From assembly GCA_900299185.1 (NCBI GenBank), contig OMIV01000293.1, positions 1-64,000 on the forward strand: a DNA stretch of 64,000 nt, read 5' to 3'. Under the pieces are notes generated by a model. That model did no database searches and was not told where the DNA came from. It worked only from the letters and a program-made list of their open reading frames with translations. Both the position numbers and the translations under genes were made by a program. This DNA is from Planctomycetaceae bacterium (GTDB lineage: Bacteria; Planctomycetota; Planctomycetia; Planctomycetales; Planctomycetaceae). Positions 44,039 to 51,194 of the stretch are shown in pieces (within the stretch, counting starts at the first letter, position 1; every line of letters starts with the position of its first letter).

Positions 44039-45370
44039 ATGGAAGCCGTTTTCACACAACCGTTGCCTGTCTTGCTTCCGCCAGAGGCTCAATTTCGCTG
44101 CCCGGACGAGCCGCACACGATCACTCGATCGGTGCATCTGGCTCGGTTAGCTGCCTTCTATCCCAAGTGCCGACATTGCCAACATCGACATGACACCGGT
44201 CACTTGCCACCAACAGTCGTTGAGCAAATTCAAGACGTCGAGCGGCAGCGAGCTCCCCAACGTTCCTTGTTCCAAACCGATGGGGTGCGAGGTGTCTTTC
44301 ACAACGAACTGACTCCTGCCATCGCAGGCCGCATGGCCGGAGCATTGGCGAGTCTCTTGTGGGAAGCCGTTCCGCTAACGGCTCGACGGTCATCGTCAGG
44401 CTCAGTCGTGAAACGGTCTGGTCCAATGGTGGGGATTGGCTACGACGAACGACCTGCTTCTCCCGTGTTGTTCGCAATGGTGGCGGACTCGTTGAGAATG
44501 ATGGGTTGCGAAGTCGTCGATCTTGGGCAGTTGTCTCGAGCGTGCTTCATCTTTGCTGTCGATCATTTGCAAGCCGCCGGTGGAGTGCTTGTTACAGGTG
44601 CAGGTTGCGACGCCTCTTGGAATGGTCTTGACCTTGTGAGTGACGGTGCCATGCCGTTGTCGTTTGGCACCGGGTTAGAAGAGGGCGAAAGACGACTTCA
44701 AGACGGGTACTCGCGACCGACTCGACGAGCTGGATTTCAACGAGCGTATCAACCACTTGTGCCTTACGAGCCAAGTCTGTGGAAGCACTTTCATGCGTTG
44801 CGGCCACTCAAGATCGTCGCTGCGATTCGGCCTCGGACTACTCGCGAAACTCTTCGACGACTGGCCTCAAAACTACCGTGCGAGTTCACCGAAATTGAAA
44901 CGATGGCCGGAAGCCATGCACCGATTAGACATTCGGCTCTCTTAGCCAGCATCACTCAGCGGGTCTCCCGAAGCGCCGCGCACCTGGGCGTCCTCATCGA
45001 CGACGATGGCTGTCGTTGTCAGTTCCTAGATGAGAAAGGTCGATTGATCGAGGCAGCTCGCCTGGGCGCCTTCTTGGCGAGTTCGCTCATCGCTGGTAAC
45101 CCACATGCGACGATCGCCGTGAAGTCAGCCGACCTGGAAGACCAAATGCGGCGGTTGAAATCCGGCAATCTGATTGATGCTGGTGAGACAACTGGAAGCC
45201 TTGCTCAAGCAATGAGAAACAGTGGCGCGGTCCTAGGCATCGCTAGCAACGACACGTGCTGGTGGCGGGAATCCTGTCCGACACCGGACGCTATTCTGAC
45301 TCTCGCGCGAGTGCTCCAAGCTTTGAGTCGCAGCGACGCTCCATTTTCGGCTGTCCTGCCCAAACACTAA
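44039..45370 (+). CDS. Degenerate phosphohexomutase with N-terminal zinc ribbon
   Basis: A 443-residue protein. Residues 21-56 contain Cys21, Cys44 and Cys47 plus several histidines (CRHCQHRHDTG), a probable zinc site. From about residue 76 it matches phosphoglucomutase/phosphomannomutase proteins (FQTDGVRGVFHNELTP). The loop with the catalytic phosphoserine, TASHN in active enzymes, reads VTGAGCDASWNG, so the serine position is Ala188. The metal loop DXDXDR reads DDDGCR at 321-326, losing one aspartate. The C-terminal phosphate-binding domain (RXSGTEP) is missing. It therefore looks like a pseudo-enzyme, perhaps a sugar-phosphate sensor or partner of the GlnE just downstream. Confidence 0.7.
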   Translation: MEAVFTQPLPVLLPPEAQFRCPDEPHTITRSVHLARLAAFYPKCRHCQHRHDTGHLPPTVVEQIQDVERQRAPQRSLFQTDGVRGVFHNELTPAIAGRMAGALASLLWEAVPLTARRSSSGSVVKRSGPMVGIGYDERPASPVLFAMVADSLRMMGCEVVDLGQLSRACFIFAVDHLQAAGGVLVTGAGCDASWNGLDLVSDGAMPLSFGTGLEEGERRLQDGYSRPTRRAGFQRAYQPLVPYEPSLWKHFHALRPLKIVAAIRPRTTRETLRRLASKLPCEFTEIETMAGSHAPIRHSALLASITQRVSRSAAHLGVLIDDDGCRCQFLDEKGRLIEAARLGAFLASSLIAGNPHATIAVKSADLEDQMRRLKSGNLIDAGETTGSLAQAMRNSGAVLGIASNDTCWWRESCPTPDAILTLARVLQALSRSDAPFSAVLPKH

Positions 45371-45496
45371 GACCAACACTTTCAAGTCGTGTTTCCACAT
45401 GAGTCAGGGAAGATGCTGGAAGGGAGACAGAATCCCCGTTCTTTCTTTGCTCAGACGATTGAAGGCTGCCAGGCGGCGCAGCACATCAGGAACGTC

Positions 45497-48400
45497 ATGC
45501 CTCGTAACTACTTCGATTTGCTCAAGACCAATTTGACGGACGACATCGACGCTCGCGCGGTGTTTGAACCTATTGGCTTTGGCGATTGGGAAAAGGCTCG
45601 GGAGCGGCTGGTTGGACTGGCGAAGGATGGTCGATGTCGCGACGCGTTGGCTGAATGCATGCCGATGCTGTTGAGTGTCCTGAGCAATGTCGCGGCCCCT
45701 GATAGCTCGCTGCTGAACTTCGAACGCTTCGTGCAGAGTGTGTCCGATCCGTTGTCGCTGTTGCTGTTCCTGCGGGACAACCCGCGCGCGGTTGAGGTGC
45801 TGATAAAGCTATTCACGGGGAGCCAGTTTCTCACCGACATCCTGCTGCGGAATCCCGGTTATCTTCGCCAACTGACGGAGCATAAGCGGCTGGCAGAATT
45901 CAAAGCTCGGGAAGAGTTTGTTGATGAAGCGTTGAGCGGTTTGATCCGGGAAGAATCCTTACATGGAAAGCTGGACGCGTTGCGTCGGTTCCAACATTGG
46001 GAGCTTCTGAGGATTGGGGCCTGCGACACTTTCGGACTGATGGACTTCAAGTCGGTTACGTTGCAGTTATCGCTGTTAGCAGATGGAGTGACTCAGACTG
46101 CATTATATGTCGTGGCAGAAGAGTTACATGTTTCGACAGACGAATTCTGCGTGCTGGCGTTTGGCAAACTCGGTGGCGAGGAGCTCAATTACAGCTCGGA
46201 CATCGATCTAGTTTTTGTGTGCCGAGACAACGCCGCGAAGTACTGGGGACTCGGACAAAAGCTGATTCGAGCTCTCATGGATACGACCGCCGAAGGCTTC
46301 TTGTATCGAGTCGATATGCGGCTGCGTCCGTGGGGAAAATCTGGAGCGTTGGTTTGCACCGTCGACTCGTATCTCGAGTACCTCAGAAGCAGTGGCCAAC
46401 TTTGGGAGAAGCAAGCACTGCTTAAGGCTCGACCAATTGCAGGCACGCTGTCCTTGGGATTGGAGTTGCTGAAGCGAGTTGAGCCGTTTGTCTTTGAGAC
46501 CAGCGAAGAAGACGCGCGGCTGAATGTCCGCTCGATGAAGAACAAGATCGAAGCGGAACTCGCGAAGAAAGGCCGACTGTTTGGCGATGTGAAGTCTGGT
46601 CGAGGGTCGATTCGCGACATCGAGTTTCTGACACAGTTCTTACAGCTCAAATACGGTCGCTCACAACGAGCGGTTCGCAGTGCTAACACTCTCGATGGTT
46701 TGATTCGATTGGCAGACTTCGACTGCATCTTGCCGGGCGAGTACCGACGACTGACCGCTGCCTATGTCTTGTTTCGGACGATCGAGCACTCGCTGCAATT
46801 GCTACATTACGAGCAGGAGCATTCGCTGCCGACCGACGAGCGCGAGTTGGCATTCCTCGCGGGTCGACTGGACTTCCCGAGCGCGACGGCATTTCTGGAG
46901 GCTTATCAACAGCACCGTGATGACGTTCGTCGGATCTATGAGCGCTACATTGAAGTCGTTGAAGTTGAGCCGGAGGTCGATCAGGCGGCGTCCAAACTTC
47001 CGCCTCACGCCGAGTTGATGGAGCCGTCTTACGCCAAGGTCTTTTTACCCGAGCAGATTGAACGGCACGCCGTGCTGCTCTCGCGGTTAAGCCCTGATAA
47101 TCCTATTGAGATCGACATCGTGCCGACGCTTGGAGACCGCGTGCAGCTAACGGTCTGCGGCTTCGATCAAAAGGGCGACCTCTCGATGATGTGCGGTCTG
47201 TTGTTTGCCTATGGCTTCAACATTGTGCTCGCGAATGTCTTCACTGCAGAGCAAGTACGCGAGGCCGATTTGATGACGAGCGGCTCATCAAAACGCCGCG
47301 CGACTAATCAAGATGCTCGACGATTCGTAAATGTGTTCGTGCTGAAGCCAACGCTGTTCAACCCGCAACCGGGCCAGCCCGCCGAAGAGGTGTGGCCTCG
47401 GTATCAGGCAGAACTAGCGGACGTCTTGCGATTGGCTGCAGGTGGTCAAATGCGTGAAGCCCAAGGCCGCGTTGCCAGTCGCGTTGCGTCTGTCATGCGC
47501 GGGCTGACAACCAGCTCAACAGCCGCGTTGCCGCCTATCAACATCGACATCAACAACGAGCAGTCTGAGCGATACACCGTTCTGCACATCAGCGCTGAGG
47601 ACACTCCAGGGTTCTTGTACGAGCTGACGAATGCGCTCTCGTTGGTTGGGTTCGATATTCAGCGTGTCATCGCGGCGTCACTGGGTAGTCGAGCATTCGA
47701 TACAATCTACATCCTCGATCCGCATGGCGAGCGCGTCACCAAATCGGCTGAGCAGGCGCGGTTACGAGCCGCGATTGCGTTCGTCAAACACTTCACACAC
47801 TTGCTTCCGCGATCGCCCAATCCGGAAGCGGCGCTGCTGCACTTTGGCCGGTTCGTCGAGCGACTTTTCGACCAACCTGATTGGGCTTCTCAATTGGCGT
47901 CATTGGATCACAGTGATGTGTTGGATGCTCTCGCGCGGCTCTTGGGATTCAGCGACTTCTTGTGGGAAGACTTCTTACGGCTGCAGTACGACAACTTGAT
48001 TCCGGTGCTGCGAGACGTATCAGGTTTGGAAGTTCGCAAGTCCCGAGCGGAGTTGGTGGAAGAACTCTCTCCCCTGCTGGTCAACTCAAAGGGCGCGTTG
48101 AATCCGAACATGGAAGCTCGATCCATCATCAATGCGTTCAAAGATCGCGAGATGTTCCGTGTCGATATGCGACACATCATTGGGCACTGCCCCGAGTTCA
48201 ATGACTTCTCGTCAGAGCTTTCGGACGTGGCCGAGACTGTGGTCGCTGCAATGTTCGAGCATTGCTTCGCTCAATTGTCAGCCAAGCATGGTGTGCCTCT
48301 GGCCGATGGGGATGCTGACTCTCGGCCCGTTCGAGTGACGGTGCTCGCACTGGGAAAGGCGGGTGGTCGCGAGTTGGGGTTTGCTTCCGACATCGAACTG

Positions 48401-49192
48401 ATGTTTGTCTATGAGCAAGCCGGTCGAACGAGTGGGCCTGACGTGATTGGTGCCGCTGAGTTCTTTGTGCGATTGGTGGAAGACTTCGCCAACTCGATTG
48501 AGGCGCGACGGCAAGGCATCTTCCAGATTGATTTGCGTCTGCGGCCGTATGGCAATGCCGGTTCGCTGGCGGTGTCGCTGGATGCGTTTGAGAGTTACTT
48601 CGGTCCGACGGGACCAGCGTGGCCGTATGAGCGACAAGCTTTGGTGAAGCTGCGGCCAATTGCCGGTGACGAGCAGCTGGGGCAACGGGTCAGCGAGTTA
48701 CGTGATCGCTTCGTCTATACCGGCCAACGATTTGATTTGGCTGCGATGCGAGCAATGCGTGAGCGGCAGTTGCGGCAACTTGTTGAGCGTGATTCGCTGA
48801 ATGCCAAACTGAGTGCGGGAGGCTTGGTCGATTGCGAGTATCTCGTTCAAGGCTTGCAGATCACCTTTGGTCTCGAACATCCCGAGTTGCGAACACCGAA
48901 TACTTGCCGCGCGATTGATGCTCTGTATGCGGCCCAGTTGCTGTCTGAAGACGAGCATCAGGCGTTACTGCGAGCTTACGGTCTGTTGCGACGGGTCATT
49001 GATGCGCTACGCATGGTGCGCGGCGATGCTCGTGACTTAACTCTTCCATCACCGGAGTCTCAGGAGTTCCGTTCGTTGGCCCTGCGATTGGGATACGGCT
49101 CGAATTGGCAGTCGTTCCAAAGTGATGTCGATGCGACGACGAGCAGCGTGTTGGCGTTGTCTCGCGTTCTCAGCGAACGAGTCTGGGCCTGA
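45497..49192 (+). CDS. glnE: Glutamine synthetase adenylyltransferase with internal ACT-like domains
   Basis: A 1231-residue protein. The N-terminal half matches GlnE, including FLTDILLRNPGYL and the nucleotidyltransferase signature FGKLGGEELNYSSDIDLVFV (about residue 221). The C-terminal half has the second signature, LGKAGGRELGFASDIELMFV (about residue 952). GlnE normally has about 950 residues. The extra middle region has two ACT-like segments near 536-600 and 691-745 (RYTVLHISAEDTPGFLYELT). GlnE adenylylates and de-adenylylates glutamine synthetase; ACT domains bind amino acids. Direct sensing, for example of glutamine, is plausible. The start at 45497 is preferred for its AGGA site; in-frame starts lie up to 45389. 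Confidence 0.85.
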   Translation: MPRNYFDLLKTNLTDDIDARAVFEPIGFGDWEKARERLVGLAKDGRCRDALAECMPMLLSVLSNVAAPDSSLLNFERFVQSVSDPLSLLLFLRDNPRAVEVLIKLFTGSQFLTDILLRNPGYLRQLTEHKRLAEFKAREEFVDEALSGLIREESLHGKLDALRRFQHWELLRIGACDTFGLMDFKSVTLQLSLLADGVTQTALYVVAEELHVSTDEFCVLAFGKLGGEELNYSSDIDLVFVCRDNAAKYWGLGQKLIRALMDTTAEGFLYRVDMRLRPWGKSGALVCTVDSYLEYLRSSGQLWEKQALLKARPIAGTLSLGLELLKRVEPFVFETSEEDARLNVRSMKNKIEAELAKKGRLFGDVKSGRGSIRDIEFLTQFLQLKYGRSQRAVRSANTLDGLIRLADFDCILPGEYRRLTAAYVLFRTIEHSLQLLHYEQEHSLPTDERELAFLAGRLDFPSATAFLEAYQQHRDDVRRIYERYIEVVEVEPEVDQAASKLPPHAELMEPSYAKVFLPEQIERHAVLLSRLSPDNPIEIDIVPTLGDRVQLTVCGFDQKGDLSMMCGLLFAYGFNIVLANVFTAEQVREADLMTSGSSKRRATNQDARRFVNVFVLKPTLFNPQPGQPAEEVWPRYQAELADVLRLAAGGQMREAQGRVASRVASVMRGLTTSSTAALPPINIDINNEQSERYTVLHISAEDTPGFLYELTNALSLVGFDIQRVIAASLGSRAFDTIYILDPHGERVTKSAEQARLRAAIAFVKHFTHLLPRSPNPEAALLHFGRFVERLFDQPDWASQLASLDHSDVLDALARLLGFSDFLWEDFLRLQYDNLIPVLRDVSGLEVRKSRAELVEELSPLLVNSKGALNPNMEARSIINAFKDREMFRVDMRHIIGHCPEFNDFSSELSDVAETVVAAMFEHCFAQLSAKHGVPLADGDADSRPVRVTVLALGKAGGRELGFASDIELMFVYEQAGRTSGPDVIGAAEFFVRLVEDFANSIEARRQGIFQIDLRLRPYGNAGSLAVSLDAFESYFGPTGPAWPYERQALVKLRPIAGDEQLGQRVSELRDRFVYTGQRFDLAAMRAMRERQLRQLVERDSLNAKLSAGGLVDCEYLVQGLQITFGLEHPELRTPNTCRAIDALYAAQLLSEDEHQALLRAYGLLRRVIDALRMVRGDARDLTLPSPESQEFRSLALRLGYGSNWQSFQSDVDATTSSVLALSRVLSERVWA

Positions 49193-49250: not shown

Positions 49251-49286
49251 AAGTCCGTAGTCAGACAGATTGCTGACTACGGACTT
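49251..49286 (-). terminator. Rho-independent terminator, convergent glnE/YTV
   Basis: AAGTCCGTAGTCAG at 49251-49264 pairs perfectly with CTGACTACGGACTT at 49273-49286 around an 8-base loop. On the minus strand a T-rich run follows (TTTCGTTTT), so it should end the YTV gene. It could also slow glnE transcripts. Confidence 0.7.
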
Positions 49287-49305
49287 AGATTTCAGACAAC
49301 AGAAC

Positions 49306-50670
49306 TTAATTGCCGCAGCTCGTGCATCCGGGCATTGGAGCTGGTCCACATGTCGGAGTTGGGCAGCAGGTTTGAACTGGGACGCAGCGAGTCACGCAAC
49401 GTGGCACGCAGACGGTCTCGCAGTACGGAACCTGACGTGGCACGCAGCGAGTGTTGTTGACGTACTTGGTCTCACAGACTTGCTTGGTGACCGTGTAAGG
49501 CACTTTGCGAGTGTGGCATTCTTTGATCATCGTGCAGGTGGTGTAAGGCACCTTCACCGAGACTTGCTGAGGCTCGTACGAGCAGACCGTGTATGGCACT
49601 TGGCGAGTACGAACTTCGCAGCGAGTCTGGCAGACGTTGTAAGGAATCCGACGATGTCGGACTTCTTGTTGAGTCGTGCAGACCGTGTAAGGCACCTTCT
49701 TCGTGCGGCACTCTTTCACGACGTGGCAAGTGGTGTATGGCACACGGCGAGTCTGAGTGATCGGAACCGTCTTGCAGACTTGGTATGGCACTCGGCAGGT
49801 CTTGACTTCTTGGACCATACGAGTCGTCATGACAGTCTTCTTCTCGTTGCGTGGCACCCACACTTGCTTACAAGAGATGGGTCCGGGGCAAGAGACTTGT
49901 TCGTTACGAGTGCAGCCGGGTCGATAGACCTGAGTGCAACGATTGCAATCCCACTCCCAGCGGCCAGGCGTCTGAACGCAGCGGTTGCAGCAAGAAGCCG
50001 GACCTTGTTGGACGACGGTCTTCCACTCGCCGCCGCAGCAATCAACTTGCTGGCATTCCACGACTGGGCGGCAAACCGTGTAGCAGACATCTTTGTAATG
50101 CGTCTCGTTGCATTGCTTGTAAGTGGTGTAGCACTCGTCGCGATAGCACGTCTGATAGACCGGCTTGCAGACGGTGTAGCACTCGTCGCGATAGCACGTC
50201 TGATAGACCGGCTTGCAAACGGTGTAGCACTCGTCGCGATAGCACGTCTGCGTGTAAGGCACTTGCACGGTGTATTGCTCACATCGCCAAGCGGTCTTTT
50301 GAACCGGCTTGCAGACGGTGTGGCAAACATCGCGATAGCAGGTCTGATAGACCGGCTTGCAAGTCTCGTAAGCCTCGTCGCGGAAGTGAGTCTCGCAGAC
50401 GTTGCGAGTGCATTGGACCGGAGTTTGTTCGCAGACGGTGTCATAGACCGTGCGATACTTGGTCACAGTGCATTTGTCGTAAACGACATCCTGTACCATC
50501 TTGTAAGAGGTGCAACAGGACCGGGCCGAGCAGAAATCTCCGCTCGGAGAACACGCTGGTGTGGGGCAGCATGAATAGCTTCCCGCACCGCAATAGCTGG
50601 CGAACGCTGATTGTCCCAGTCCTGCAATCAGGAAGGCCGCCAGGACCGCAATCCATGGTGCCGGTTTCAT
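49306..50670 (-). CDS. Cysteine-rich YTV-repeat surface protein
   Basis: A 454-residue exported protein with a signal peptide (hydrophobic residues about 5-22, cleavage near AFAS) and very high cysteine content. The rest is built from short repeats of the type RXVPYTVC and CYRDECYTVCKPVYQT. YTV-type repeats mark planctomycete cell-wall/surface proteins, where disulfides are thought to stiffen the envelope. GAGGAG stands seven bases before the ATG at 50670. Tandem 48-bp DNA units lie inside the gene. It is much smaller than the giant YTV proteins known from Rhodopirellula. Confidence 0.85.
   Translation of the reverse strand: MKPAPWIAVLAAFLIAGLGQSAFASYCGAGSYSCCPTPACSPSGDFCSARSCCTSYKMVQDVVYDKCTVTKYRTVYDTVCEQTPVQCTRNVCETHFRDEAYETCKPVYQTCYRDVCHTVCKPVQKTAWRCEQYTVQVPYTQTCYRDECYTVCKPVYQTCYRDECYTVCKPVYQTCYRDECYTTYKQCNETHYKDVCYTVCRPVVECQQVDCCGGEWKTVVQQGPASCCNRCVQTPGRWEWDCNRCTQVYRPGCTRNEQVSCPGPISCKQVWVPRNEKKTVMTTRMVQEVKTCRVPYQVCKTVPITQTRRVPYTTCHVVKECRTKKVPYTVCTTQQEVRHRRIPYNVCQTRCEVRTRQVPYTVCSYEPQQVSVKVPYTTCTMIKECHTRKVPYTVTKQVCETKYVNNTRCVPRQVPYCETVCVPRCVTRCVPVQTCCPTPTCGPAPMPGCTSCGN
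50125..50250. repeat. 48-bp in-frame tandem repeats inside the YTV gene
   Basis: Units at 50125-50172 and 50173-50220 differ by one base, and a third partial unit continues from 50221 to about 50250. Each encodes 16 residues of the CYRDECYTVCKPVYQT type. The near-identity suggests recent duplication, and the repeat number may vary among strains. Confidence 0.8.
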
Positions 50671-51194
50671 CGGACGACTCCTCGCAATCCAATTGGTCCC
50701 AAAGGGCCGCCTCCTGCGGTTGATGAGGTCTCGTACCTCAAACAAAGGCAATCGTTGCCTTGTGCCCACTCTCCAGAGTGAGGCGCTTTGTGAGTTGCAA
50801 CGGCCGATCAATGATCGACCGATCGAAAGCCCTCGCTGTCGGCAGAATCTGCTCAGCACGAAAACTCTTCGCTTTTTGTTCGTCATTCGCGATTCGCCGC
50901 TTGAAACAACGTCGAAATGTGCCTGGTCGGAATGACTGAAAGTCCTCACGCGGATTACGCCATCGGCCTGTTCGCTACAGGTTGCCCATTCGGAGTGGGC
51001 TGCTTTGGACGCGATAAGGAAACTTGAGCAGAAGACTTCCCGCTGCGGGATTTTTCGGGAGCGGCGAAGACCATCCATGCTCAGCGGATCGAGGCTTGCT
51101 AGAGTGGCGTCGTCGGTCGAAGCACAGAGGCAGAGGTTTGTTCTCTAGTTTTGGCTGACACTCTTTAGTTCTTGTTCTTGAGTGAGTCCGCATC
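50671..51194. other. Intergenic region between YTV and DUF1501 genes
   Basis: 524 bases between divergent genes. It contains two small palindromes, CACTCTCCAGAGTG at 50767-50780 and GCCCATTCGGAGTGGGC at 50984-51000, plus CCCGCTGCGGG followed by T-rich sequence near 51039-51055. None is a clear operator. Short frames here have no recognisable features. Confidence 0.4.

Follow-up and report, generated by a model that had tools for sequence, protein, structure and literature searches.

A GlnE protein with a GlnD-type pair of ACT domains between its two catalytic halves in a Planctomycetaceae bacterium and its relatives

The window analyzed here, a stretch of 64,000 nucleotides from a Planctomycetaceae bacterium (draft assembly of 383 contigs), carries on its forward strand the gene glnE at positions 45497–49192, which encodes a protein of 1231 aa with the order adenylyl-removing (AR) half, GlnD-type ACT1-ACT2 and adenylylating (AT) half. 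The open reading frame begins with an ATG at 45497, runs as one uninterrupted frame and closes with the stop codon ending at 49192, and an alternative in-frame GTG start at 45389, upstream of this ATG, would add 36 aa. Directly 5' of glnE, a phosphoglucomutase/phosphomannomutase-like protein is encoded at 44039–45370 (+), of which domain I is clear and domains II and III are weakly matched. On the opposite strand, positions 49306–51078 encode a Cys/Tyr-rich protein of 590 aa with YTV repeats (PF07639); two long forward-strand ORFs antisense to it (49270–50574 and 49851–50723) are probably spurious mirror frames.

According to Pfam, the whole glnE product contains two stretches each of GlnE (PF03710, 337 bits) and GlnD_UR_UTase (PF08335, 132.7 bits). 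The best NCBIfam models, PRK14109 (517.9 against a cut-off of 625) and PRK11072 (484.7 against 487 bits), both stay below their equivalog cut-offs, which are curation thresholds rather than defining biological features, because of the extra module and the divergence of the protein. No Pfam match to an HD domain was obtained in the 1231 aa even at E 1; therefore, the protein is not a GlnD, and what it has in common with GlnD is the C-terminal module only.

The AR (deadenylylating) half (45692–46939, +; residues 66–481) comprises a nucleotidyltransferase (NTase) and a GlnD_UR_UTase helical domain, and carries the catalytic motif GKLGGEELNYSSDIDL (46163–46210, +; residues 223–238) with D235/D237, followed by a third Asp, D273. 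The AT half (47780–49171, +; residues 762–1225) carries the motif GKAGGRELGFASDIELMF (48353–48406, +) with D965 and E967, a DxE variant, and the third Asp D1012. The catalytic acidic residues are accordingly found in both halves, as SDID and VDMRLRP in AR and as SDIE and IDLRLRP in AT. The solved structures closest in sequence to the AR half are the two E. coli GlnE domains 1V4A and 3K7D (phmmer E 1.3e-49 to 1V4A across residues 105–484), and the N-terminal half of our full model reached fold Z 38.0 to 1V4A and 34.6 to 3K7D. The protein thus resembles E. coli GlnE (GS-ATase) in its homologous halves of NTase plus helical domain, with AR N-terminal and AT C-terminal, in its catalytic motifs and, as predicted here, in having a Tyr of glutamine synthetase (GS) as its substrate. 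Unlike E. coli and ordinary planctomycete GlnE, which have SDxD wherever the motif of the AT half is readable, the window's GlnE and all 70 two-motif members of the contig set (relatives L074–L153) have SDxE in this half. SDxD is retained in the ACT-bearing GlnEs (ACT-GlnEs) of the f78 lineage (L020, L025), and SDxE would therefore be a near-general signature of the ACT-GlnE subfamily. The nucleotidyltransferase motifs are thus intact in both halves, although activity of an AT half with DxE should not be assumed.

The region between the halves, which in E. coli is a short R linker, is the post-HD C-terminus of GlnD. This module (47006–47779, +; residues 504–761, delimited by TIGR01693 and hhalign) is made up of a linker helix, ACT1 (47105–47440, +; about residues 537–648; loop motif D557..G560), delimited by AlphaFold2 strands and helices, and an ACT2 core (47540–47731, +; about residues 682–745; loop motif D702..G705), delimited by Pfam ACT and AlphaFold2. 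Positions 623–846 of the GlnD profile TIGR01693, which cover both ACTs, aligned to GlnE residues 504–761. Moreover, hhalign matched 76 GlnE middles to 29 GlnD C-termini with probability 99.6 and E 3.3e-24, against a probability of 0.4 in the reversed control, over the pre-ACT linker helix, ACT1 and ACT2 at about 19% identity. The Pfam ACT model hit residues 695–744 (ACT2) with 23.5 bits in the whole protein, below the 27-bit cut-off, and with 27.5–28.1 bits, just above it, when the middle region was searched alone. ACT1 was not detected by Pfam alone, and its backing comes from TIGR01693, hhalign and AlphaFold2; among the 76 relatives, Pfam at E 0.01 found ACT in 60 and ACT_ACR9_3rd in 75. Sequence searches found no solved structure for the module and no solved GlnD ACT structure.

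The AlphaFold2 model of residues 496–860, built with the 76 relatives (mean pLDDT 86.7, pTM 0.85), contains two ACT-type units with a helical spacer between them, and in both copies the beta-alpha-beta-beta-alpha order with a Gly at the beta1-alpha1 turn is present. The middle region is thus predicted to adopt an ACT-like fold twice. The top VIA-align match of this model was aspartate kinase (Z 10.7, 164 residues, 4.1 A), followed by large glutamate dehydrogenase (Z 8.5) and the regulatory region of threonine deaminase (Z 8.3), all at a low sequence identity of 12–16%; BirA-type proteins were also among the structural matches. Foldseek alone gave poor TM-scores for the whole middle model, probably because the two ACT domains shift relative to each other, and VIA-align was clearer. 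The ACT-like middle was retained in the full-length model (residues 42–1231; pLDDT 84.7), of which the pTM of 0.60 means that the relative placement of domains is not secure. In AlphaFold2, a continuous helix that contains LRAAIAFVKHFTHLLP (47744–47812, +; residues 750–772) connects the end of ACT2 with the beginning of the AT half, and it recurs in both models (255–277 of the middle model and 709–731 of the long one).

These results bear out the earlier note in placing two ACT-like segments between the catalytic halves of a GlnE: ACT2 is seen by Pfam and ACT1 by TIGR01693, hhalign and AlphaFold2, the profile search of the middle returned homology to the GlnD C-terminus, and the misfolding of this region that could have undone the claim was not borne out by the model. 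The extra region is real, although its length, given there as about 280 residues, needs correction. The halves lie 309 aa apart here, with two ACTs between them, against 92 in E. coli and 85–111 in ordinary planctomycete GlnEs, so that the net excess is about 200–220 aa, and the GlnD-derived module itself measures about 258 aa.

ACT-GlnE and GlnD (PII uridylyltransferase/UR) share the order linker helix-ACT1-ACT2, clear profile homology and a conserved ACT2 loop, and in both the ACT module comes after an NTase-GlnD_UR_UTase unit. They differ in that GlnD has an HD domain, which was not found in ACT-GlnE, whereas the latter holds its module in mid-protein, ahead of a second NTase half, has a longer ACT1 hairpin and a helical spacer, and forms an ancient separate lineage. 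The ACT tree separates GlnE-ACTs from GlnD-ACTs (support 75–91, not strong), and this split, together with the presence of the layout across phyla, disfavors a recent fusion with this genome's own glnD.

Relatives are encoded at no fewer than 300 loci in our scan of genome contigs, and the best 80 of these come from Planctomycetota, many Chloroflexota, and single Spirochaetota, Acidobacteriota and Nitrospinota bins. Every full-length member checked among these 80, including one from a complete genome (L151), has the order AR-ACT-ACT-AT. Of 294 genomes sampled from the phylum, 17 belong to the window's family, and each of these matched over the full length. In the tree of halves, a single branch (SH-aLRT 100) sets all 27 ACT-bearing AT halves apart from the others, and the ACT-bearing AR halves form nearly one group, which points to one origin of the layout. 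On these sequences, ACT-GlnE is an old, widespread and deep GlnE subfamily rather than a one-genome oddity. The layout, which the earlier note called unfamiliar from well-studied GlnE, is itself common, and a search of open-licence (CC0/CC BY/CC BY-SA) PubMed Central papers, with subscription literature and database annotations outside its scope, found no description of a GlnE with ACT domains. The parts are known and their combination is conserved, and the layout is apparently uncharacterized.

Forms other than AR-ACT-ACT-AT are rarer. In one permuted form (L023, genome G290), a single ORF adjoining glnA has the order ACT-ACT-AT followed by AR; L022 and L024 are ACT-ACT-AT proteins whose genomes showed no AR half, and L031 has an AR remnant, as judged on draft assemblies of an estimated completeness of 95–99%. 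The genomes of L022, L024 and L031 still have an adenylylatable GSI despite the missing or remnant AR half. For the permuted and AR-less (L022/L024) forms, the joining of an ACT-ACT-AT unit to AR is a better account than a simple insertion of ACTs, whichever the direction of change. ACT-ACT precedes AT in every form seen, and this constant joining points to control of AT and hence of adenylylation.

The loop motifs are strongly conserved in the 76-member alignment, with D557 and G560 of ACT1 each kept in 75 of 76 and D702 and G705 of ACT2 in all 76; this set was picked by similarity to the window's GlnE via a junction-helix pattern, so that the conservation is inflated and that of the junction is partly built in. 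In a wider set of 17 members, the ACT1 motif is degenerate in the close relatives L016 and L019, and the ACT2 Gly is replaced in the distant L021–L024 and L031, with the ACT2 Asp invariant. From the D..G loop and the likeness to GlnD, glutamine binding by the ACT pair is plausible. However, neither an ACT fold nor a D..G motif determines which ligand is bound, and there are ACT domains that serve for dimerization only.

In the textbook bicyclic control of GS adenylylation, the signal runs from glutamine through GlnD, PII and GlnE to GS. The earlier note had proposed that the window's GlnE bypasses the PII/GlnD part of this cascade, and the gene content of its own genome speaks against it. GlnD is encoded in full (541 bits), with its NTase, HD and ACT parts, separately from glnE, along with PII proteins bearing a GAEY T-loop (Tyr51) beside ammonium transporters, and bypass is therefore not indicated in this organism, which also has one GSI (L041) with the adenylylation-site Tyr (DKDIYDLEPAE). 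GlnD was present in 20 of 24 ACT-GlnE planctomycetes (11 of 12 in another count); the four without it (G037, G077, G111, G290) are those whose ACT-GlnE is permuted or has lost AR, and PII is likewise missing from two of them. All 35 Chloroflexota with ACT-GlnE lack GlnD, including the complete genome of Leptolinea sp. HRD-7 (L151), and PII in these 35 was clear (88–103 bits) in 6, weaker in 11 and without a match in 18. Of 24 GlnD-less genomes, 22 had any GS match, and each of these 22 has a GSI that carries the Tyr site; glnA lies within a flank of about 4.5 kb at 19 of 46 Chloroflexota ACT-GlnE loci. With GlnD in none, clear PII in few and glnA often nearby, a bypass is plausible in these Chloroflexota relatives.

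As a general rule, compensation of GlnD loss by the ACTs was rejected, since ordinary GlnE occurs without GlnD in 39 of 77 planctomycetes and ACT-GlnE planctomycetes mostly retain GlnD. The module is therefore not simply a GlnD substitute, and the absence of GlnD follows lineage. In a smaller set of ordinary-GlnE genomes, GlnD was present in 8 of 8. The planctomycete families f16, f18, f25 and f42 often have ordinary GlnE and no GlnD.

The reading that we favor, and hold to be rather probable, is a bifunctional GS adenylyltransferase/adenylyl-removing enzyme of a deep ACT-GlnE subfamily, in which the ACT pair gives AT a direct amino-acid input, likely glutamine. Glutamine or a related amino acid would bind the ACT1-ACT2 pair, the ligand-induced change would pass via the helix 750–772 into the AT half, and high glutamine would shift the enzyme toward adenylylating, that is inactivating, GS. 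In E. coli, PII drives GlnE toward adenylylation and PII-UMP toward deadenylylation; in the window's organism, the ACT input would add to that of PII/PII-UMP from the complete GlnD/PII system. Where GlnD is lacking and a clear PII mostly so, as in the Chloroflexota relatives, GlnE may depend chiefly on the ACT input, and in many of them possibly on nothing else. That E. coli GlnE reportedly responds to glutamine without ACT domains counts against this reading. We tentatively suggest, at somewhat less than even chances, that the ACT-GlnE of Anaerolineae-type Chloroflexota is a one-protein nitrogen switch, which senses glutamine with its own ACT pair and adenylylates GS without GlnD or, mostly, PII, in place of the textbook cascade of two tiers, and that the planctomycete version, that of the window included, integrates direct glutamine sensing with PII.

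The ACT pair might instead bind no small ligand and organize the two halves by dimerization or by docking a partner such as PII or GS, with regulation left to PII/PII-UMP. We regard this as unlikely, though it would suit the retention of GlnD and PII here and in the majority of the planctomycete members, the degenerate ACT1 motif of L016 and L019, and the BirA-type matches, by which the fold alone gives no function; it sits poorly with a D..G ligand loop kept in 75–76 of 76 relatives and, where docking is concerned, with 29 of 35 GlnD-less Chloroflexota having no clear PII to dock. Quite improbable, in our estimate, is a signal other than glutamine, such as glutamate, another GS feedback amino acid or, indirectly, 2-oxoglutarate. 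The divergence of GlnE and GlnD ACTs (about 19% identity), their separation on the ACT tree (support 75) and best structural neighbors that are regulatory domains of enzymes under other amino acids would allow for it, but glutamine belongs to the product pathway of the enzyme, and the GlnD ACT pair is regarded as the glutamine sensor of GlnD in PMC3173338, which cites Zhang et al. 2010. An artefact of annotation or assembly that wrongly joined glnD and glnE, for which nothing but the draft state (383 contigs) was found, is refuted by the uninterrupted frame, the separate full glnD and the recurrence of the layout in all full-length members among the 80 best loci, including the complete genome.

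Beyond the GlnD likeness on which the direct-input reading draws, the plant proteins ACR11 and ACR12 possess two GlnD-like ACT domains near GS2 and were proposed to sense glutamine in a GS context (PMC3173338). They share the GlnD-like ACT pair with ACT-GlnE and differ in being free-standing, without a nucleotidyltransferase. Aspartate kinase, threonine deaminase and large glutamate dehydrogenase are alike in having ACT or ACT-like domains that regulate an enzyme, although with other catalytic partners and other ligands.

If this holds, the Chloroflexota in which ACT-GlnE occurs with no GlnD and mostly no clear PII would control GS adenylylation through a shorter circuit. ACT-GlnE also gives direct experimental access to two questions, the way in which the ACT pair of GlnD reads glutamine and the coordination between the opposing halves of GlnE. 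As well, the E. coli scheme is not a safe default for the annotation of nitrogen control in Planctomycetota and Chloroflexota.
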